Positions 2,886 to 24,439 of a stretch of 24,713 bases of DNA are shown here, one piece after another. Below the pieces are notes generated by a model that ran no database searches, was not told where the DNA came from, and saw only the letters and a list, made by a program, of their open reading frames with translations. Location: positions 1 to 24,713 of IMG/VR virus record IMGVR_UViG_3300006332_000071, one strand, 5' to 3'. Made by a program: the position numbers and the translations under genes. Each line of letters opens with the position of its first letter. Within the stretch, counting starts at the first letter, position 1. This DNA is from a virus.

Positions 2886-3563
2886 ATGGCAACCTACGCA
2901 GATTTAAAATCAGCCATTATTAATACGACCGAAAATGATGGCACAGAATTTACTAGTGAGATACCTAATTTCATTAGCAGAGCAGAGATACGCCTGACCA
3001 AAGATATTGATGATGCTGGTCTGGATGAGTATACTGCTATTACACTTACGGCTGGTAATGCAGTTGTAAGTCTTGGAGACAGGGTGCGTATAGTTCGTAA
3101 TGTAAACTTTACAACCAGTGCCTCCAGTATTAAAACAAATCTGTTACAAAGAACAATCGAATATTGTAATGACTACTGGCCTGTGAGTGCTTCTACAGGT
3201 ACACCTCGTTACTACGCACGTAAGAATAACACTTCTATATTTATTGTACCAACTCCTGCATCTACTGTAACAGGAGAAGTACAGACAGTTTCACAACCTT
3301 TGGCTCTTGCTTCAGCTACAGGAACAAGTGTTACAACACAAAACTATTTTAGCAACTATTGTTATGATGCTTTATTCTACGCATCAATGATGGAAGCTAC
3401 AATGTACATGAAGGATTGGAATACAATTCCTGCATGGCAACAGCAATATGAAGCAGCAATAATTACACTTAGAAACCAAGCTAGAAGGACACGTCAAGAT
3501 GATATGGCAGTTGCTGCATCACCTGCTGGTGGTCCTGATACTTTACAACAAGGAACACCATAA
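2886..3563 (+). CDS. Head-tail adaptor / tail ring protein (first of two)
   Basis: A 225-residue protein whose start is placed at the ATG two bases after the previous stop; an in-frame ATG 30 bases upstream lies inside the previous gene and is unlikely. The N-terminal 75 residues (MATYADLKSAI, ...EIPNFISRAEIRLTKDID..., ITLTAGNAVVSLGDRVRIV) follow the pattern of phage adaptor/ring proteins: a helix, then 'IPxFIxxAExRI', then a 'tltaGxaxvxLPxd' strand pair. A helical C-terminal half (YDALFYASMMEATMYMKDW...) would pack in the ring. In podoviruses such proteins form the connector ring below the portal. A second ring-type protein lies at 7342-8016, so which is the direct portal adaptor is unclear. 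Confidence 0.65.
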   Translation: MATYADLKSAIINTTENDGTEFTSEIPNFISRAEIRLTKDIDDAGLDEYTAITLTAGNAVVSLGDRVRIVRNVNFTTSASSIKTNLLQRTIEYCNDYWPVSASTGTPRYYARKNNTSIFIVPTPASTVTGEVQTVSQPLALASATGTSVTTQNYFSNYCYDALFYASMMEATMYMKDWNTIPAWQQQYEAAIITLRNQARRTRQDDMAVAASPAGGPDTLQQGTP

Positions 3564-3580
3564 AGGGATCGGCAATAGTT

Positions 3581-3799
3581 ATGACTAATCGTTCTAGTGT
3601 TAGGAAACAGATCATGAAGCCACCCAAAAAACGCAAACCAAAACTAGGGAGTGGGGCTAGATTCAAAGCCCTGACAACACAACTAAAGAAACGTGGAGCA
3701 AAAAATCCTAAAGCCCTTGCTGCATCTATAGGCCGTAAAAAGTACGGTAAAAAGAAAATGACAGCAATGGCTAAGAAAGGTAGAAAGAGGAGATCATAA
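3581..3799 (+). CDS. Very basic small protein
   Basis: A 72-residue protein of which about a third is Lys or Arg. After a short N-terminus comes PPKKRKPKLGSGARFKALT, then a helix pair with NPKALAASIGRKKYGKKK and a basic tail GRKRRS. The motif 'RFKAL...LKKRGAKNPxALAAxIGRKKYGKKK' recurs in marine phage genomes as I remember it, without known function. It could bind DNA inside the head. An alternative start at 3614 (MKPPKK) has AGGA at a better distance. The stop codon overlaps the next start as TAATG. First member of the cassette of basic proteins between the two ring proteins. Confidence 0.65.
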   Translation: MTNRSSVRKQIMKPPKKRKPKLGSGARFKALTTQLKKRGAKNPKALAASIGRKKYGKKKMTAMAKKGRKRRS

Positions 3800-3954
3800 T
3801 GGATAAGAAAACCGTAGCAGTTGTAGAACAACCTGCTAAAGTAGAAACAAAACCTGTACAAGAGGATAGTAGTCTTGGGATAGGTATAGCAATTATTGCA
3901 GCTATTTGTATAGGTGCATGGTTTATTTATAGAAAATATAAGAAGGAGCAATAA
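3799..3954 (+). CDS. 51-residue single-pass membrane protein
   Basis: This short gene begins at the ATG of a TAATG overlap with the previous gene and ends with TAA two bases before the next ATG. The product has a hydrophilic N-terminus (1-25: MDKKTVAVVEQPAKVETKPV...), one clear transmembrane helix (26-44: LGIGIAIIAAICIGAWFIY) and a basic end RKYKKEQ. By the positive-inside rule the short C-terminus is cytoplasmic and the N-terminus outside. It is too short for routine calling, but its tight fit between two genes and good ribosome context for its neighbour support it. Function unknown; it may be a virion or host-membrane peptide. Confidence 0.6.
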   Translation: MDKKTVAVVEQPAKVETKPVQEDSSLGIGIAIIAAICIGAWFIYRKYKKEQ

Positions 3955-3955
3955 A

Positions 3956-4132
3956 ATGGCTGGACCCCATACTCTAATTAAACGTCCTCATAACCTAGAT
4001 GAGATTGTAGGTAGACCTACAGGACAAGGATATGGGGCAGCACGAAAAGGACCAGATGTAAAAGGTCCACCCCAAGATGTTGTAGTTGATGAAGACTATG
4101 ATGAAGGCAAAGCTTTTAAAGTGGAGAATTAA
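3956..4132 (+). CDS. Small hypothetical protein with acidic end
   Basis: A 58-residue protein whose start is the ATG at 3956, with AAGGAG nine bases upstream; an in-frame ATG at 3914 lies inside the preceding membrane-peptide gene and would have no ribosome site. The first half is neutral to basic and Gly/Pro-rich (HTLIKRPHNLDEIVGRP, QGYGAARKGPDVKGPP), the second half acidic (VVVDEDYDEGKAFKVEN). It looks intrinsically disordered. No family is recognised. It lies in the cassette of basic proteins and could be a partner or clamp for one of them; that is speculation. Confidence 0.55.
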   Translation: MAGPHTLIKRPHNLDEIVGRPTGQGYGAARKGPDVKGPPQDVVVDEDYDEGKAFKVEN

Positions 4133-4134
4133 TT

Positions 4135-5634
4135 ATGGCTGAACTTTCAGATAGATTAAAGAGATTAAAGAAAAAGTATCCTAAACAATTTAAAGCTTAT
4201 ATGAAAAGACGTAAAGGACGTAAAAGTTCGGCTGCTGATTTTAGAAAAACTATAGATAAAAAGGGAAAACAAGCTAAAGAAATAACAGAAAAAATTCCAA
4301 CAAGCCAACGTCAAATAGCTGCAGGTTTGGCGGTTGCTGGTTTAGTTCCTGGTGTAGGTAAACTTGTTAAACCTGCTAGTAAAGTAGCAACAGAAGCTGT
4401 AAAAAAAGGTACAAAATTTTATAAACGATCTCAAGCTGCTAAAAAAGCTGCAGCTTTAAAAAAACAAAAAGCAGCAGAAGCTGCTAAAAAGGCTGCAGAA
4501 AAAGCTAAAAAAGCTGCTGAATTAAGAAAACAAAAAAAAGAATATAAACAACAGTATGGAAGTACTACACCTAAAAAAGTTGTAAAGAAAACAACTAAAA
4601 AAGTTGTAAAGAAAACACCTAAAAAAGTTGTAAAGAAAACACCTATAGCTGATAAGTTAAAAAAACAAAGACAAGTATTAGCTGATAAGTTAAAAAAACA
4701 AAGACAAGCACAAGCTGCTAAGTTAAAAAAACAAAGACAAGCACAAGCTGCTAAGTTAAAAAAAGAATATAAACAACAATATGGATCTGTTAAACCAGCT
4801 TCTAAGACTGTAGTTCCAAAGGGTGGATCTGTTAAACCAGCTTCTAAGACTGTAAAACCATCTAAAGTTGTAAAGAAAAAACCTGTGGAAATGAGTGCCG
4901 CAGCCCGTAAAAAAGCAGAAAAACTTACAAAAGGTTACAAAAAACAACAGCCTAAAAATAAATATAGTAGTACAACAACCGCAAAAATTGCTAGAGATGC
5001 TACTAAAGGTAAACCTAAACCAAAGCCTATAATAGCTCCGAAACCGAAGACTAAAATAACTACAAAACCTAAACCGAAGCCTAAAAAGAATCAAGGACCA
5101 AATGTAGCAGCAAGAAAGAAGACTGTAGGAACATTAGGAAAAATAGCATTAGGCGGTGGTCTTCTTCTTGGTGGAAAAGCAGCTTATGATGCTAGTGAAA
5201 AGAAAAAGCAAGACCAATCTAAAAATAATAAACGAATATTAGCTGAACAAAAAAGAATGCAGCAAGGACAAAAAAATTTACCAGTTATAGCAAAACCAAA
5301 ACCAAAACCAGAACGTAAATCTAAAATTAAAGATTTTGTTGATGTAAATGAAATTGATTATGATACAGATAAAGATGAAGGTAATGGAACAGAAAAACGT
5401 AAAACTCTTGGTGAAGCTATGTTTGGTGGGTTTAAAACTGGCGATTGGTCAGCAAAAGATCAAGTAGTTGAAAATCCAATTACAGGTGAAGATATGGAAC
5501 TTAAATATGAGTATCCTGAAGATCCTGATGAAGGTATGAAAAAAGGTGGTAGCATTAAAAAGAAGATGAAGAAAACTAAAGTAAAGAAACGTGCTGCCCT
5601 ACGTGGATATGGTAAAGCACTTAGAGGATTTTAA
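4135..5634 (+). CDS. Repetitive Lys/Ala-rich protein, histone-like composition
   Basis: A 499-residue protein dominated by Lys and Ala. Order: basic N-terminus (1-55, RLKRLKKKYPKQFKAYMKRR), a short hydrophobic stretch (about 60-77, IAAGLAVAGLVPGVGKL), a Lys/Ala helix region (85-140), three KKVVKKTP repeats (147-170), four 11-residue repeats of the type AAKLKKQRQAQ (172-215), two 14-residue GSVKPASKTV repeats, a Pro/Lys-rich section (about 290-322), a Gly-rich hydrophobic stretch (333-350, LGKIALGGGLLLGGKAA), an acidic patch around 401-421, and a basic end (KVKKRAALRGYGKALRGF). The composition resembles histone H1 or TolA-like helices. It may condense DNA or line the virion interior. The hydrophobic patches may contact membrane. 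It has a ribosome site (GGAG) and couples to the next gene by TAATG. Confidence 0.65.
   Translation: MAELSDRLKRLKKKYPKQFKAYMKRRKGRKSSAADFRKTIDKKGKQAKEITEKIPTSQRQIAAGLAVAGLVPGVGKLVKPASKVATEAVKKGTKFYKRSQAAKKAAALKKQKAAEAAKKAAEKAKKAAELRKQKKEYKQQYGSTTPKKVVKKTTKKVVKKTPKKVVKKTPIADKLKKQRQVLADKLKKQRQAQAAKLKKQRQAQAAKLKKEYKQQYGSVKPASKTVVPKGGSVKPASKTVKPSKVVKKKPVEMSAAARKKAEKLTKGYKKQQPKNKYSSTTTAKIARDATKGKPKPKPIIAPKPKTKITTKPKPKPKKNQGPNVAARKKTVGTLGKIALGGGLLLGGKAAYDASEKKKQDQSKNNKRILAEQKRMQQGQKNLPVIAKPKPKPERKSKIKDFVDVNEIDYDTDKDEGNGTEKRKTLGEAMFGGFKTGDWSAKDQVVENPITGEDMELKYEYPEDPDEGMKKGGSIKKKMKKTKVKKRAALRGYGKALRGF
4573..4644 (+). repeat. Three 24-base tandem repeats in the Lys/Ala-rich gene
   Basis: Three adjacent copies of a 24-base unit encode KKVVKKTT, KKVVKKTP and KKVVKKTP. 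The copies are nearly identical in DNA (AAAAAAGTTGTAAAGAAAAC followed by AACT or ACCT), which points to recent slippage or unequal exchange. Confidence 0.9.
4648..4779 (+). repeat. Four 33-base tandem repeats in the Lys/Ala-rich gene
   Basis: Four adjacent 33-base units (from 4648, 4681, 4714 and 4747) encode ADKLKKQRQVL, ADKLKKQRQAQ, AAKLKKQRQAQ and AAKLKKEYKQQ. Units two and three differ by only a couple of bases. The 11-residue period and alternation of charged and small residues favour a continuous helix. Confidence 0.9.
4783..4854 (+). repeat. Two 30-base direct repeats in the Lys/Ala-rich gene
   Basis: A 30-base sequence at 4783-4812 recurs at 4825-4854 and encodes GSVKPASKTV in both places. 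Copies start 42 bases apart, so the protein period is 14 residues. Confidence 0.85.
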
Positions 5635-5831
5635 TGATTAGTGCAGAGTTTTTAAAACAATATAAACAATCTGTAGAAGCAGGAGAAGATGATTATAGTT
5701 TAGTAGACTATAGTTGTGTTAAACCTTTAAAAGAAAATTTTGATTGTTTTGATGAATATTGGAAAGAACTTACGCATTATTTAAAAGAAAAGTATAAGTA
5801 TACATATGGTAGCAAAGCGCAGAAAAAGTAA
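5634..5831 (+). CDS. Small acidic hypothetical protein
   Basis: A 65-residue protein starting in a TAATG overlap, with AGAGGA upstream inside the preceding gene. It is rich in Tyr, Asp, Glu and Lys, with two cysteines (28 and 38) and a helical look throughout (AEFLKQYKQSVEAGED, DEYWKELTHYLKEKYK). No membrane segment or recognised domain. It is one of the few non-basic proteins in this stretch, so it could neutralise or chaperone a basic neighbour; this is only a guess. Its 3' end overlaps the longer form of the next gene. Confidence 0.55.
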   Translation: MISAEFLKQYKQSVEAGEDDYSLVDYSCVKPLKENFDCFDEYWKELTHYLKEKYKYTYGSKAQKK

Positions 5832-6099
5832 TATGAAAGGGATTACCATTGGTAGGGGTATGAAACGTCCTACCAAGGCTGGTGCTGGTATGACCAAGAA
5901 AGGTGTAGCCAAGTATCGTAGGCAGAATCCTGGTTCTAAATTAAAGACTGCTGTTACTGAAAAGAAGCCTACTGGTAAACGTGCATCAAGACGTAAATCA
6001 TATTGTGCTAGATCAGCAGGGCAAATGAAGAAGTTTCCCAAAGCTGCTAAGAACCCTAACAGTAGACTAAGACAAGCTAGAAAAAGATGGAGATGCTAA
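5806..6099 (+). CDS. DUF6321-like basic protein
   Basis: A 97-residue, strongly basic protein. The order KAGAGMTKKGVAKYRRQNPG, SKLKTAVTEKKP, then a C-terminal part SRRKSYCARSAGQMKKFP, NPNSRLRQARKRWRC matches my memory of the DUF6321 family: 'GxTxKGxxKYRRxNPGSxLKtaVt...RRKSfCaRsxG...NPxSRlrxARkRWxC'. This family is frequent in marine phages and its function is unknown. Two cysteines (67 and 97) sit in the most conserved part and could bind a metal or pair up. The start is uncertain: an ATG at 5833, one base after the previous stop, gives 88 residues and fits the tight gene packing; the 5806 start overlaps the previous gene by 26 bases. Confidence 0.75.
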   Translation: MVAKRRKSNMKGITIGRGMKRPTKAGAGMTKKGVAKYRRQNPGSKLKTAVTEKKPTGKRASRRKSYCARSAGQMKKFPKAAKNPNSRLRQARKRWRC

Positions 6100-6106
6100 A
6101 AAATAA

Positions 6107-6790
6107 ATGTCTTATTTAATATCAAACATCCCACATTTTAAATGTTGGGTACGTAAAGAGTTTACAAGTAACCACGAAGATTATGAAGGAGAATATTTAC
6201 ACGCACTAGCTTTTGCAGTTAATACTATACCAGACAGGTCATTAAGTTTTCAAGTAGTATTTACTGGATGTGATGAAGAAGAAAACATACATGGTGGAGC
6301 AATGTGGGCTAGAATGCCAATAGCTGCACTAGTAGCTGATACAAGATTAGAAGAGTGGCCTGAGTTAATGCCAACACATTTTGCACAGCCTTGGGATTGT
6401 TCTTCACGAAATCACGCTATAATAGTAATGGATAGAGTTTCTTCTAGTCCGTGGCTTTGTAAAATAAATGGAGAGTTTTATACAGGTCGTTATATGTTTA
6501 CTGTAGATTATACAGACAGTTATATTTCAGATGATCCAGCACAACATAAACAATCACATGTATTAGAACTTATAGATGCTGGAGAATTTACAGGTAACAT
6601 AATAGCGTTACCAAATAATAGAGTAAGAGTAACAAACCCTGCTTTATGGGTTGCTGGAGAAGGCGCACCAGATTTTGCACCAAGTCAGTATATACATTCA
6701 GCAGAAATAGATAATAGTTACATGAATCCTAATATTACTTTTAACAACTTATATTCAGAAGAGGAAGATTCAAATGATGAAGAAGACTAA
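6107..6790 (+). CDS. Conserved phage protein with acidic tail, unknown
   Basis: A 227-residue protein with an N-terminal part (ISNIPHFKCWVRKEFTSNH...) rich in aromatic residues, followed by beta-like segments (LSFQVVFTGCDEEENIHGG, MWARMPIAALVADTRL, SRNHAIIVMDRVSS, GEFYTGRYMFTVDYTDSY), and an acidic end SEEEDSNDEED. I recall similar proteins beside DUF6321 in marine phage genomes, but know of no function. No membrane segment. The ribosome site is weak (GGAGA about 13 bases upstream). The last 17 bases are also the first codons of the next gene in another frame, so the acidic tail is read from the DNA that encodes the basic start of its neighbour. A globular virion or accessory protein is the safest description. 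Confidence 0.6.
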   Translation: MSYLISNIPHFKCWVRKEFTSNHEDYEGEYLHALAFAVNTIPDRSLSFQVVFTGCDEEENIHGGAMWARMPIAALVADTRLEEWPELMPTHFAQPWDCSSRNHAIIVMDRVSSSPWLCKINGEFYTGRYMFTVDYTDSYISDDPAQHKQSHVLELIDAGEFTGNIIALPNNRVRVTNPALWVAGEGAPDFAPSQYIHSAEIDNSYMNPNITFNNLYSEEEDSNDEED

Positions 6791-6935
6791 ATATAAATCT
6801 AAAGGTGGTACAGTTCGTCGTAGAGGCGGTGGTATGGCTAAGAATACTAAGTACAAATCTAAAGGTGGTGTAGTGCGCCGTAGAGGTGGTGGCAAGGCTA
6901 CTAAGTATCGTTCTCGTGGTGGTCGTGTTCGTTAA
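6774..6935 (+). CDS. 53-residue Arg/Gly/Lys repeat protein
   Basis: A short gene starting with ATGATG inside the end of the preceding gene and stopping 11 bases before the next. The product consists almost entirely of a 20-residue unit: TKYKSKGGTVRRRGGG, TKYKSKGGVVRRRGGG, then a degenerate third copy TKYRSRGGRVR. It has no acidic residues at all and resembles RGG-type nucleic-acid-binding peptides. Two adjacent copies are close to identical in DNA as well. No ribosome site beyond the GAGGAAGA upstream in the overlapped gene. Expected to bind DNA, RNA or phosphate-rich surfaces; function unknown. It is too short for routine gene calling. Confidence 0.65.
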   Translation: MMKKTKYKSKGGTVRRRGGGMAKNTKYKSKGGVVRRRGGGKATKYRSRGGRVR

Positions 6936-6946
6936 AGGCAATTAAA

Positions 6947-7342
6947 ATGCCAGTAAAAAAAAGCGGTACAGCTACAAAACGTGACCCTAAAAAATGGGCT
7001 GCTGCTAAAGCTAGAGCAAAAGCTAAGATGGGTGGTAAACACTCAGCAAGGGCGATGCAATTAGCAACTAAGTATTACAAGGATGCAGGTGGTACTTACT
7101 CAGGTAAGAAGAAAAAGAGTAATAAACTATCAAAATGGACAAAGCAGAAATGGACAACCAAATCAGGCAAACCAAGTGGCAAGACAGGGGAGAGATATCT
7201 TCCCAAGAAAGCAATCAAGGCACTGTCATCAAAGGAATATGCAGCGACCACCAGAGCAAAGAGAAAAGGGACTGCTGCAGGGAAGCAGTTCGTGAAGCAG
7301 CCAAAAAGAATAGCTAAGAAAACAGCAAGGTATAGGAAATAA
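6947..7342 (+). CDS. DUF5872-like basic protein
   Basis: A 131-residue basic protein with two parts. Residues 10-55 (RDPKKWAAAKARAKAKMGGK, HSARAMQLATKYYKDAGG) form two helices seen in many phage basic proteins. Residues 61-106 (LSKWTKQKWTTKSGKP, GERYLPKKAIKALSSKEY, ATTRAKR) match the DUF5872 pattern as I remember it: 'LskWTkeKWgTksGk...tGERYLPkkAr.aLs.kEYaATtrkKr'. DUF5872 is found in phages and giant viruses with unknown function; a nucleic-acid or chromatin-type role has been an obvious guess from its charge. The remaining tail is basic (KQPKRIAKKTARYRK). It is joined to the next gene by TAATG. Confidence 0.75.
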   Translation: MPVKKSGTATKRDPKKWAAAKARAKAKMGGKHSARAMQLATKYYKDAGGTYSGKKKKSNKLSKWTKQKWTTKSGKPSGKTGERYLPKKAIKALSSKEYAATTRAKRKGTAAGKQFVKQPKRIAKKTARYRK

Positions 7343-8016
7343 TGGCAGTATCAGGCACATATAATTTTAATCTTGATATAGATGAAGTAATACAAGAAGC
7401 AATGGAAATGATTGGGGGAGAGCAAACCCTTGGTCATGAACCTGCTTCTGCTAGACGTTCTATAAATCTTATGTTAAAGGATTGGCAAAATAGAGGTGTT
7501 CTTCTCTGGAGTACTTCTGTTTCTTCTGTGACTGTTGCTGCAAGTACGACAGCCTATGACCTAGCTTCTTCTACAGTAGATGCTCTTGAAGTGGTACTCA
7601 ATAGAGATGATACAGACTTACAATTAGAACGCATATCTCCTGAAGAATATTTATTAATACCAAATAAAACACAAACAGGAAGACCTTCTCAATATTCAAT
7701 ACGTAGAGGAAGAGCTAATCCTGTTCTTTCTTTATGGCCTATACCTGAAAATTCTACTGATGTTATAAAGATAGAAGTTATTAGTGAACTACAAGACGTA
7801 GATAAGTCAGCAGGACAGAATGCTGATTTACCTAAAAGGTTTCTACCTTGTCTTACATGTGGTCTAGCATATTATATGTCAATGAAAAGACCTGGTGTAG
7901 AAGGTGCTAGAATAACAATGTTAAAAACAAACTATGAAGAAACACTTGCAAGAGCTATGCAGGAGGACAGAGAAAGAGCAACTATGAAAGTTGTTCCAAG
8001 ATTAAGGTATGTATAA
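7342..8016 (+). CDS. Podovirus head-tail adaptor / tail ring protein (second)
   Basis: A 224-residue protein with the pattern of the P22 gp4 / T7 gp11-type ring proteins: helices at the start (DIDEVIQEAMEMIGGEQTLG, ARRSINLMLKDWQNRGVLLW), then a strand region (VSSVTVAASTTAYDL), an insertion holding LERISPEEYLLIP and TGRPSQYSIRRG, a strand LSLWPIPENSTDVIKIEVI, and a C-terminal helix bundle with LPKRFLPCLTCGLAYYMS. The 'W...v.l.a.t..Y.Lp..v..v......d..l.risr.eY..ip.k...G.Ps.y...' order is typical for the family. In podoviruses it forms the dodecameric ring linking portal and nozzle. Coupled by TAATG on both sides. Assignment of this or the first ring protein to 'adaptor' versus 'tail ring' is open. 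Confidence 0.75.
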   Translation: MAVSGTYNFNLDIDEVIQEAMEMIGGEQTLGHEPASARRSINLMLKDWQNRGVLLWSTSVSSVTVAASTTAYDLASSTVDALEVVLNRDDTDLQLERISPEEYLLIPNKTQTGRPSQYSIRRGRANPVLSLWPIPENSTDVIKIEVISELQDVDKSAGQNADLPKRFLPCLTCGLAYYMSMKRPGVEGARITMLKTNYEETLARAMQEDRERATMKVVPRLRYV

Positions 8017-8291
8017 TGGCAAGTAATAAAAACGCATTAGCAATGTGTGATACATGTGGGTTTGTATATCCACATAGAGTAATGCGTTTAAATAGTTATC
8101 ACATGATAACATGTCCAGATTGTTTTGAAGGACAGTATGACTTAGAAAATCACCCACAAAATAAAGTACCCGATGTACGAGATAACCCTGCTATACGTGA
8201 CCCAAGACCTGATGATGGTGGTAGAGGTCTTACATGGCAACAAGCAACAACCAAATGGGAAGACACTGACAACTGGTGGAATACAATATGA
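8016..8291 (+). CDS. Zinc-ribbon small protein
   Basis: A 91-residue protein with two CxxC knuckles: Cys11-x2-Cys14 (CDTCGFVYPH) and Cys33-x2-Cys36 (CPDC), spaced 18 residues, a classic zinc-ribbon layout. The second half is hydrophilic and Trp/Asp-rich (DVRDNPAIRDPRPDDGGRG, WEDTDNWWNTI). I recall similar proteins between the ring protein and fibre genes of marine podoviruses; their role is not known. It may be a small tail protein or an assembly factor. The gene overlaps the preceding stop by TAATG and the following start by ATGA, so it is tightly co-translated with the ring protein and the fibre. Confidence 0.7.
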   Translation: MASNKNALAMCDTCGFVYPHRVMRLNSYHMITCPDCFEGQYDLENHPQNKVPDVRDNPAIRDPRPDDGGRGLTWQQATTKWEDTDNWWNTI

Positions 8292-11071
8292 CAGAATTAA
8301 CAGGAAAATTAATATCAAATAGTTATAAACAACTACTAAAAGTTGGTGTAACTGCTAATACTGGCGTTAGTGCTGGTCTTCAAACTATTGAAACTGGAGA
8401 TGGAACTGATAGTTCTTTTCAACTTGCTACTGGTGCAGCCAAATTTACAGGGACTCTTGCTGTAACAGGTAACGTATCTCTTGATGGTAATCTTCATGTT
8501 GATGATAAAGTTTGTGCATCTGCATTCTATGGAGATGGTTCTAACATTACAGGTGTTACTGCTACGATTGCAGGTAATATATCAGTTAGTAATGCAACTG
8601 TAGGTGGTAATCTATATGTAAGTGGTACTACAACTATTGTAGGAGCTACACATTTACAGGCTGCTGTATCAGTTGGTGGTGCTGCACAGTTTGGTTCTAC
8701 AGTAACAGTATCAGGAGCAACACAGCTTCAAAGCACTGTAACGGCTGTTGGTGCAGCTACATTTAAATCTACAGTTACAGTAGAAGGTGCTGCTACTTTT
8801 GATAATAATGTATCAGTAAGTGGTACATTTAAAGCTCTTGGTGCATCTACGTTTACTGGTAAAGCAGAGTTTGAAGATGATGTGTCAGTATCAGGTGCCT
8901 TGGATGTAGCTGGTAATGCTTCTATTGGTGGAACACTCATGGCAACAGGTGCAGCCACATTTGATAATAATGTATCAGTTAGTGGTGGTCTTGTTGTAGG
9001 AGGCACAGTAACAATAGTAGGAGCCAACGTACAAGCTGCCAATGCAAAGGTTTGTGCATCTGCTTACTACGGTGATGGTTCTAATATAACTAATATTAGT
9101 GGACCTCAAATATCAGGTGATGTATCTGTTAGTAATATAAAAGCTGCTGGTAATGTATCTGTAGCTGGTAATTTAAATGTTGATGGTACTGTTACTATAG
9201 GGGGAACTAACTTACAAGCTACTAATGCAAGAGTTTGTGCATCTTCTTATTATGGAGATGGTTCTAACTTAACTAATATTGCTGCATCTATTGTTAATAA
9301 TAGAGTTGGAGGTAACTTTGCTGTATCTGCTAATCTATCAGTAGGTGGTACAGGTAACTATACAGGAGCAGCTACATTTGCTTCTACTGTAACAGTAGTG
9401 GGTGCAGCAGCCTTGAAGAGCAATGTAACAGTAGGTGGCACACTTGATGTTACAGGTAATACCTCAATAGGTGGTACATTCCTTGCAACTGGTAAAGCAG
9501 AATTTGAGGACGATGTATCTGTAAGTGGTGCATTAATAGTAGGAGGAACTACAACTATTGTAGGTGCTACTCATTTACAAAGCACTGCTTCAGTAGGAGG
9601 AGCAGCTACTTTTGCTTCTACGGTAACAGTGGTGGGTGCAGCAGCTTTAAAAAGTAATGTAACAGTAGGTGGTACATTAGATGTTACAGGCAATACATCT
9701 ATAGGTGGTACAAGTAATATTACAGGTAAAGCAGAGTTTGAAGATGATGTATCAGTCTCTGGTGCATTAGTTGTAGGTGGAGCTACACAACTTAACTCTA
9801 CAGTAACAATAGCTGGTTCAGCAATCTTTGAAGATAGTGTATCTGTAAGTGGTAATTTAGATGTAGCTGGTAATGTATCAGTAGGTGGTACATTTTTTGC
9901 TGCAGGTGGGATTACCTACGATGGTGATGTATCTGTATCAGGTAACTTAGCTGTAGGTGGAAATGTATCAGTAGGTGGAACTTTAAGTGTTACAGGTGCA
10001 GTTAGCCTAGCATCAACATTGAGTGTAGGTGGGGCTGCTCATTTTGCTTCAACAGTCACAGTTGCAGGGGCTGCTATATTTGAAGATGCAGTATCTGTAA
10101 GTGGTGTAGTTAATATAGCTGGTAATACATCAGTAGGAGGTACTTTTTTAACAACAGGGAAAGCAGAATTTGAAGATGATGTATCAGTTAGTGGTAATGT
10201 AAATATTGGAGGAACAACTACTATTGCAGGAGCAGTAAGTCTTGCTTCTACATTAAGTGTAGGTGGAGTAGCAAACTTTGCTGATACTGTAACAATAGCT
10301 GGTGCTGTAAGTCTTGCTTCTACATTAAGTGTGGGTGGGGCTGCATATTTTGCATCAACTGTTACTATAGCTGGAGCAGCACATTATCAAGGAGGTGTAT
10401 CAGTAGCAGGAGATATAACTGCAAGTGGTACAATTAATGTAACTGGTGATACAGCATCAGGTGATGATGCAGCAATAGGTTATACAAGTACAGAAGGAAT
10501 TATAATTACAGGACAAGGCTCGACAAATGACATAACTTTAAAACGAGACGACGACACCGCAGTGTTAGAAGTTGCAACAGGTCAAAGTGATATTGAAATT
10601 ACTGGTGGTAACATATTTTTTGGAACTGCAAATAAAGGTGTATATTTAGGAGTTACATCAGCCACAGCAGCTAATCTTCTTGATGATTATGAAGAAGGAA
10701 ACTGGACAGCAGCATTAGAAGGAAGTACATCTAATCCAAGTTCGGCTGTTACAGTTACAGGTAATTATACTAAAATAGGTAGAATAGTTTATATACAAGC
10801 AGCATTTGCAAATGTTGATACTACAGGGGCTGCTGGAGGTATTAGAGTTACAGGTTTACCTTTTGCTCCATCACCTGCTAATCAAATGACAGGTAATGTG
10901 ACTTTTCATACAATAGCTACAATAGCTTCTGGAACAGCAAATATATCTCCATTTTTTCAATCTGATAACGTAGCTTTCTATCAATCAAAAACAGCAGCAG
11001 CATGGTCAGAAACTCAACATAATGCTGGTTCAGGAAGATATTTATACTTTAGTGGTTTATATCAAACTTAG
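8288..11071 (+). CDS. Long repeat-built tail fibre protein
   Basis: A 927-residue fibre. The ATG at 8288 overlaps the previous stop (ATGA); a GTG four codons upstream is in frame but less likely. Residues 1-45 would attach to the tail. About 45-720 is built of short repeats with VSVSG, VTVVGAA, GGTLDVTGN and GKAEFEDD modules, interrupted three times by a [AS]-[FY]-YGDGSN-[IL]-T module (near 80, 260 and 320). Such alternating Val/Gly/Ser rungs suggest a trimeric beta-helix shaft. Near residue 797 begins a globular C-terminal domain with LLDDYEEGNWTAALEG, YTKIGRIVYIQAAF and a final YLYFSGLYQT, which I recall as a common end domain of marine phage fibres. Role: host surface binding. The codon pattern of internal repeats is notable (see findings). 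Confidence 0.8.
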   Translation: MTELTGKLISNSYKQLLKVGVTANTGVSAGLQTIETGDGTDSSFQLATGAAKFTGTLAVTGNVSLDGNLHVDDKVCASAFYGDGSNITGVTATIAGNISVSNATVGGNLYVSGTTTIVGATHLQAAVSVGGAAQFGSTVTVSGATQLQSTVTAVGAATFKSTVTVEGAATFDNNVSVSGTFKALGASTFTGKAEFEDDVSVSGALDVAGNASIGGTLMATGAATFDNNVSVSGGLVVGGTVTIVGANVQAANAKVCASAYYGDGSNITNISGPQISGDVSVSNIKAAGNVSVAGNLNVDGTVTIGGTNLQATNARVCASSYYGDGSNLTNIAASIVNNRVGGNFAVSANLSVGGTGNYTGAATFASTVTVVGAAALKSNVTVGGTLDVTGNTSIGGTFLATGKAEFEDDVSVSGALIVGGTTTIVGATHLQSTASVGGAATFASTVTVVGAAALKSNVTVGGTLDVTGNTSIGGTSNITGKAEFEDDVSVSGALVVGGATQLNSTVTIAGSAIFEDSVSVSGNLDVAGNVSVGGTFFAAGGITYDGDVSVSGNLAVGGNVSVGGTLSVTGAVSLASTLSVGGAAHFASTVTVAGAAIFEDAVSVSGVVNIAGNTSVGGTFLTTGKAEFEDDVSVSGNVNIGGTTTIAGAVSLASTLSVGGVANFADTVTIAGAVSLASTLSVGGAAYFASTVTIAGAAHYQGGVSVAGDITASGTINVTGDTASGDDAAIGYTSTEGIIITGQGSTNDITLKRDDDTAVLEVATGQSDIEITGGNIFFGTANKGVYLGVTSATAANLLDDYEEGNWTAALEGSTSNPSSAVTVTGNYTKIGRIVYIQAAFANVDTTGAAGGIRVTGLPFAPSPANQMTGNVTFHTIATIASGTANISPFFQSDNVAFYQSKTAAAWSETQHNAGSGRYLYFSGLYQT
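8440..10430 (+). repeat. Degenerate protein-level repeats of the fibre shaft
   Basis: Dozens of short Val/Gly/Ser-rich modules follow one another. GKAEFEDDVSVSG occurs four times, and one 36-residue block (9371-9478 and 9605-9712) is repeated with identical amino acids. DNA copies are diverged at third positions, so this is an old, selected repeat and not a fresh tandem duplication. Confidence 0.8.
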
Positions 11072-24158: not shown

Positions 24159-24175
24159 GTTGAGGAAGATTGAAA

Positions 24176-24439
24176 ATGACAACCTTTGCTAAAATAGAAG
24201 ATATCTTAGCTGATGTAGTCTCTCCTGCCATAGCTCAACATGGTGGCATTATACAATTATTATCTTACGATGAAGAAAAAAAGAATGTCCATGTTAAATT
24301 AACAGGGTCGTGTGCAGGGTGTGCTGCTAGTTCATTTACTCTTAAACTAGGAGTAGAAGAAACTCTTAAAGAATATCTACCAAATGACGTTGAAAGCGTA
24401 TCACATGAGGAAGGCGAGGTAATTAACCCATATTACTGA
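24176..24439 (+). CDS. NifU C-terminal-type Fe-S scaffold protein
   Basis: An 87-residue protein that is a lone NifU/NfuA scaffold domain. The ATG at 24176 has GAGGAAGA six bases upstream; a TTG six bases earlier is less likely. Signature: SPAIAQHGGIIQLLSYD (about 16-32), then VHVKLTGSCAGCAASSFT with Cys46 and Cys49, and LKLGVEETLKEYLP. The CxxC holds an iron-sulfur cluster (often 4Fe-4S between two monomers) and hands it to target enzymes. Iron-sulfur assembly genes are known as host-derived auxiliary genes in marine phages. Here it is at the end of the late operon after the lysis genes, not near a metabolic gene. It could act on a host or phage enzyme; the target is not visible. Confidence 0.85.
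   Translation: MTTFAKIEDILADVVSPAIAQHGGIIQLLSYDEEKKNVHVKLTGSCAGCAASSFTLKLGVEETLKEYLPNDVESVSHEEGEVINPYY

Follow-up and report, generated by a model that had tools for sequence, protein, structure and literature searches.

Variable proteins with constant, slot-specific C-terminal tails in a basic gene island of marine podoviruses

Abundant marine phages encode proteins most of which have no known function. The ejection proteins of podoviruses, including gp7, gp16 and gp20 of P22 and gp14-16 of T7, are internal and variable, carry peptidoglycan-cutting domains in some cases and are ejected with the DNA; we know of no common exchangeable C-terminal tag in these families. The internal proteins Ip1-3 of T4 have only an N-terminal packaging leader in common and inhibit different restriction enzymes (PMC12373910 and PMC3012670, each in part). 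In encapsulins, a C-terminal peptide can dock cargo in a shell with the HK97 fold (PMC8346489, in part).

The locus described here, which encodes the 499-residue protein P0001, resembles each of these systems in some respects. As with T4 Ip1-Ip3 and their capsid targeting sequence (CTS), unrelated exchangeable bodies have one short terminal sequence in common and are encoded at a hypervariable locus; however, the CTS is N-terminal whereas the common segment here is C-terminal, there are two slots with two different tags, and packaging, which is proven for the T4 proteins, is a prediction here. Like the cargo-loading peptides of encapsulins, the segment is a short conserved C-terminal peptide on non-homologous proteins, although encapsulins are cellular compartments with dedicated enzymes, a profile search of the PDB detected no sequence relation for the tag, and binding to a shell is hypothetical in the phage case. 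P0001 matches none of the podovirus ejection-protein families, and SLT and LysM domains occur only in co-tagged proteins. The T4 internal proteins serve as the precedent for a system of this kind.

A basic gene island with two slots

The window, meaning the whole stretch of DNA analysed here, is a 24.7-kb record of an uncultured marine podovirus in which the P0001 gene lies within a very basic gene island between two SU10-type adaptor genes (Table 1). The major head protein of the window is 52% identical to that of HTVC023P and 54-55% identical to those of CRP-901/902. The scored window proteins with a charge above +20 per 100 residues (P0001, the DUF6321 protein and the phrog_14910 protein) are all encoded between the adaptors. 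Two more small Lys/Arg-rich ORFs (3581-3799 and 6774-6935), which fall outside the charge scoring, are found there too. Across 80 loci anchored on adaptor 2, ORFs that basic made up 198 of 490 between the adaptors and 1 of 623 outside (Fisher p 3e-81), and ORFs bearing the strict form of the tag described below made up 41 of 490 and 1 of 623, respectively (Fisher p 2e-14); where a contig lacked adaptor 1, the 6 kb upstream of adaptor 2 was taken as the region between adaptors. When identical proteins were counted once in the 28 two-adaptor loci, the window included, very basic ORFs numbered 81/197 between the adaptors and 0/220 outside. No tagged ORF was found in 6 of these 28 loci, even with the broad pattern included, in a tally in which counting each identical protein once lowers the number of tagged loci.

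Table 1. Positions of island genes and P0001 features in the window
Feature	Position	Strand	Evidence or remark
Adaptor 1 (SU10_adaptor), left island border	2886-3563	+	PF24175, E 9e-21; ORF listed from 2856
Slot A position in relatives; empty in window	3564-3580	.	Synteny of relatives, window sequence
Constant small basic gene, TNRSSVRKQIM...	3581-3799	+	Read from window sequence; constant in relatives
Constant 51-aa one-helix membrane protein	3799-3954	+	Sequence; constant in relatives
Constant 58-aa protein, GPHTLI...GQGYGAARKGP, left border of slot B	3956-4132	+	Constant in relatives
P0001, slot B cargo (putative), 499-aa Lys/Ala-rich protein	4135-5634	+	Single intact ORF
Short conserved N-terminal segment of P0001 family, MAE..L..RLKxxKxxPKxFxxYM...	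4135-4260	+	Alignment, 7 homologues
First uncharged Gly/Ala patch, IAAGLAVAGLVPGVG	4315-4359	+	Sequence
21-bp repeat x2.7	4466-4521	+	TRF; weaker, absent from first-pass annotation
24-bp tandem repeat x3.3	4567-4645	+	TRF, 96% match
33-bp tandem repeat x3.6	4647-4764	+	TRF, 95% match
42-bp spaced repeat, 2 copies (4782-4812, 4824-4854)	4782-4854	+	31 nt identical
24-bp repeat x2.2	5017-5069	.	TRF; weaker, absent from first-pass annotation
Conserved acidic C-terminal module before tag, DVNEIDYDTDKDE...LGEAMFGGFKTGDW...YEYPEDPDEG	5335-5535	+	Homologue alignment
C-terminal tag of P0001, MKKGGSIKKKMKKTKVKKRAALRGYGKALRGF	5536-5631	+	Common to unrelated bodies
Constant 65-aa protein, right border of slot B; ATG shares one base with P0001 stop	5634-5831	+	Constant in relatives
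DUF6321 protein, 97 aa, net +33	5806-6099	+	PF19846, 5e-13
phrog_3704 acidic protein, net -23	6107-6790	+	PHROGs match
53-aa Arg/Gly/Lys repeat protein	6774-6935	+	TRF; relatives
phrog_14910 basic protein, net +39	6947-7342	+	PHROGs match
Adaptor 2 (SU10_adaptor), right island border	7342-8016	+	PF24175, 6.5e-12

Constant genes define two slots in the island, slot A directly before the RSSxRQQ gene and slot B flanked by the GPHTLL gene on one side and the 65-aa gene on the other; the window has P0001 in slot B and nothing in slot A. We compared slot proteins in the 80 adaptor-2-anchored loci, which had been fetched without reference to the tag, together with the window, excluding loci found by their tails (L002, L090-L094 and others) from the within-slot comparison of tails. 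For the 13 non-redundant bodies from 16 proteins in slot A, identity over the 18-residue tail was 0.37, as against 0.16 for shuffled sequences and 0.12 elsewhere in the same proteins; the corresponding values for the 16 bodies from 29 proteins in slot B were 0.39, 0.20 and 0.12. Slot A tails (KGGxITYRMSGGQVVDNSYD and kin) and slot B tails (RAALRGYGKALRGF, RKRAALRGHRAELRGG and kin) were only 0.13 identical to each other, in a set that includes some of the tail-found loci. The synteny-defined bodies of the two neighbouring slots matched each other no better than random windows, and the first 18-45 residues of slot proteins stood at background identity (heads 0.14-0.20). Slot proteins of these phages therefore have a modular architecture, in which variable bodies carry constant, slot-specific tails.

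Several other genes of the island have features of their own. The protein encoded at 6774-6935 consists of near-identical TKYKSKGGxVRRRGGG repeats with a 60-bp period (TRF) and recurs in relatives with small changes. The phrog_3704 protein, strongly acidic inside a basic island, carries the label 'ferredoxin' and a moron-gene classification, and its family also stands beside tagged genes of other phages (7 of the 136 neighbours scanned). The constant 58-aa protein contains GQGYGAARKG, a near-match to the C-terminal tail RGYGAARKG of the tagged L205 and L225 proteins, and judging from this likeness the stretch may be a related docking element.

One tail on many bodies

The last ~33 residues of P0001, ending in RAALRGYGKALRGF, also occur on same-locus proteins with unrelated bodies, and shuffles of the window gave an expectation of 0.00 chance occurrences of the tag pattern. 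In three loci (L004, L005 and L094), a 151-aa protein that is unrelated apart from the window's tail stands in P0001's place. Conversely, L057 (7277-8554) and L287 have a P0001-type body, with the first ~95 residues nearly identical to those of L001, that ends in a different tail, ...RGAGAAKRGFGRATYSDKLY. Across tail codons of the window compared with L004, L096 and L091 (the L057 row, misaligned by an indel, was left out), dS was 0.79-0.93 and dN 0.04-0.07 over 32 codons, a short and noisy sample that nevertheless shows the amino-acid sequence of the tail to be under selection. Tails differ in sequence between phage groups. Their similarity was 0.48 within genomes and 0.43 between genomes, with 4 of 2000 permutations as high, and phylogeny alone may explain this slight within-genome excess.

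Beyond the locus, the motif RGxGxAx[RKQ]G was present in at least 253 distinct proteins among the ORFs of 292 records, gathered with one pattern that demanded a stop codon and another that did not; it lay no more than 20 aa from the C terminus in 247 of the 253 matches listed. The 211 usable motif proteins among the matches listed, which come from marine phage contigs, fell into at least 50 body clusters (32 singletons). We do not count as evidence the R-G-G-A-G conservation in our alignments A1 (from which body clusters L223 and L271 were excluded as GC-rich chance matches), A4 (47 of 48 tails, with L121 left out) and A5 (78 of the 104 remaining non-redundant tagged proteins), because the proteins had been selected by that very motif; given this circularity, we relied instead on the synteny-defined slot test. 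A profile of 47 tails found no credible match in the PDB at E<=10, returning a single unrelated chain (E 0.62); neither a virion proteome nor a structure containing a tagged protein turned up in the sources searched, and a limited search of the open-access literature, which is not proof, found no description of the tag.

Convincing named domains were found in only nine tagged proteins, all of them peptidoglycan domains, when tagged or slot proteins were scanned in overlapping sets of 48, 78 and 47. An SLT transglycosylase domain was detected in L022 (1e-11) and L034 (5e-18), and LysM in L226, L209 (two proteins), L267, L275 and L139 (3e-13 to 6e-17) as well as L024 (8e-8). The L022 protein is built like P0001, with an N-terminal part, K/P/A repeats, a hydrophobic Gly/Ala segment, an acidic stretch and the tag. 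Uncharged hydrophobic 17-mers were present in 42 of 162 tagged proteins, compared with 5.1 expected; P0001's own patches are slightly too short to be counted by this measure. Elsewhere, the neighbours of tagged genes include terminase, portal, head maturation protease, major head and adaptor families (among the 25 of 63 matched families listed), in a scan of 136 of 227 listed ORFs, that is, the first 145 minus 9, several of these nine being on the opposite strand.

Among cultured phages, the pelagiphage HTVC023P (L009/L311) offers a laboratory system: phages of its type have a related major head protein, though no P0001 homologue was found among the phage records searched, and its gp32 and gp51 end in the tag-like sequences RGVGAAIRGHKFIGVK and RGGGAAVRGMGFKGVF. 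Looser versions of the tail end its gp30 and gp53. We found no convincing tag in 023Pt_psg01, HTVC027P, CRP-902, part of DSL-LC04 or part of CRP-901, so the tag is not universal in the HTVC023P/CRP-901-like phage group. In cultured phages, tblastn searches for the tag returned nothing credible, whether the query was a short peptide or a short tagged protein. A match in Anabaena phage A-1(L) was rejected as a tag, since it lies among early genes and the matched stretch begins ~45 codons into a 178-codon gene and is not C-terminal. HTVC027P gp44 (L313 28689-28955) was likewise rejected, as what it has in common with the tagged L218 protein is not the tag but an EF-hand-like stretch (for example, DLTGDGKVTQADILKGRG), which is also present in tagged L268 and L227 proteins. 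The text of a paper on HTVC023P-type pelagiphages (PMC9599517) does not contain the terms 'C-terminal', 'hypervariable' or 'adaptor'.

Repeats and relatives of P0001

P0001 has a net charge of +105 and a pI of 10.5, as computed from its translation. The first-pass annotation had described a Lys/Ala protein built from 24-, 33- and 42-base repeat systems in a row, with near-identical DNA copies, two hydrophobic Gly/Ala patches and an acidic patch. This description is borne out by TRF, by a separate repeat search that picked up the 42-bp pair under the TRF threshold, by shuffling and by the translation, in which the uncharged patches span residues ~61-75 and ~336-346 and the acidic stretch residues ~411-467; the match between copies is given in Table 1. 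A further, weaker repeat that had gone unrecorded is a 39-nt unit present twice, 225 bp apart (4533/4758). The gene contains 100 repeated 15-mers, compared with a mean of 0.5 (max 9) in 1000 codon shuffles and a mean of 12 (max 43) in 1000 synonymous-codon shuffles that preserve the protein. The repetition thus exceeds chance in protein and DNA alike, which fits recent duplication. The arrays are unlikely to be an assembly artefact, because every period is a multiple of three, the reading frame stays open and homologues on independent contigs have near-identical arrays of their own.

The same annotation had suggested a histone-like virion protein. The strong positive charge and the abundance of Lys agree with a histone-like character, but no histone-like or HU-type family was matched, nor any other family, in Pfam, PHROGs or NCBIfam. 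The AlphaFold model of P0001 (mean pLDDT 56), with long lone helices at residues 81-141 and 171-216, was too poor for a fold search and gives no hint of what the tag would bind.

No homologue of P0001 was found among 50,697 phage records, and IMG/VR yielded homologues of 388, 411, 462, 400, 389, 239 and 331 aa. In the alignment (n=7), a short N terminus and an acidic C-terminal module with the tag are conserved and the middle is poorly conserved. Fourteen distinct family members, chosen by the N-terminal pattern and the C-terminal tag, span 239-499 aa and have lineage-specific repeat units, in agreement with the earlier suggestion of a rapidly changing, length-variable protein. Repeat counts in homologues show that copy number is not constant: a 42-bp unit is present x2.4 in L002 and as one copy each in L001 and L003, and other lineages have arrays of 30 bp x3.6 (L057/L287) and 96 bp x1.9 (L093). 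None of the relatives examined had the repeats of the window itself, so their copy number is not comparable between phages. The proposal that repeat number varies between related phages therefore holds for the 42-bp unit of L002 but captures only part of the change, as sequence comparison indicates that the middle is replaced between lineages rather than merely expanded. The first-pass annotation also missed the conserved C-terminal tag on unrelated proteins and the two-slot island.

Candidate roles of the tag

On balance, we think it probable that P0001 is one of a set of interchangeable virion cargo proteins in HTVC023P/CRP-901-like marine podoviruses, with the constant C-terminal tag as a loading label; the location inside the virion is one that we infer. 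Each cargo would combine a variable body with a constant C-terminal tag that differs between slots A and B. During assembly, the tag would attach its protein to some part of the head or connector (or its DNA), and the tagged proteins would be packaged and then enter the cell with the genome. SLT and LysM bodies would act on peptidoglycan during entry, and Lys-rich bodies like P0001 may, in addition, neutralise the packaged DNA or travel with it. The middle of P0001 would be mostly linker, tolerant of slippage and replacement, which would explain the repeats. Loading into the virion and delivery at entry fit the constant tails on exchangeable bodies, the head and connector gene context and the peptidoglycan-acting domains.

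One alternative is that the Lys/Arg/Gly tag binds DNA or RNA and that the proteins are intracellular host-takeover or genome-condensing factors rather than loaded cargo. Bodies and tails are indeed very basic, in line with the earlier histone-like idea, and lysines of T4 internal proteins touch DNA phosphates (PMC3012670, in part). We nevertheless consider this unlikely, as the conserved part of the tail is sequence-specific and differs between slots A and B, which a mere charge patch would not need, and nothing about SLT or LysM bodies calls for nucleic-acid binding in the cytoplasm. Less likely again is a role late in infection, with the tag anchoring phage proteins on the inner side of the envelope. 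The LysM and SLT domains and the Gly/Ala hydrophobic segments of several tagged proteins would suit such a role, but the gene context is one of head, packaging and adaptor genes, and the scans of tagged proteins showed no holin or spanin family. Sorting by a host system is similarly unsupported, two tag patterns giving 0 matches in a cellular genome collection searched with no positive control. Least likely, in our judgement, is that the tails and constant flanking genes merely supply homology for cassette swaps, with no role at the protein level; the fixed slots between constant genes and the wholesale exchange of bodies would accord with this, but it is weakened by tail-codon dS far above dN (0.8-0.9 against 0.04-0.07, in few, noisy codons), by tails on cargos that come first of two, away from the constant flank (L003, L014, L034), by tails on proteins elsewhere in other phages (L210, L247) and by different tail types within one body family (L057/L287 and L001).

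Returning to the loading of virion cargo, we tentatively extend it to a loading code, a possibility we rate just short of probable, in which fast-evolving, exchangeable effectors are brought into the head or connector by at least two slot-specific C-terminal peptides and a tail of ~15-35 residues makes any body cargo. The effectors would then be peptidoglycan enzymes, membrane-active and Lys-rich proteins and possibly anti-defence proteins. Such a code, if real, would parallel the internal proteins of T4 independently, at the C terminus instead of the N terminus. Should the tag prove to be a loading signal, it would provide a sequence handle for injected proteins across abundant marine phages and a candidate peptide to direct foreign proteins into phage heads, and the question of which bodies target peptidoglycan and which target host defences would become testable.

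Outside the island, the window has two further ORFs of note. The first (8276-11071) encodes a 931-aa fibre-like protein of degenerate GGTVTVxGAA-type repeats, with a mirrored 104-aa ORF on the opposite strand. The second is a short ORF with a TTG start (24170-24439; GSCAGCAASSFTLK...), whose product resembles a NifU-type Fe-S scaffold domain.
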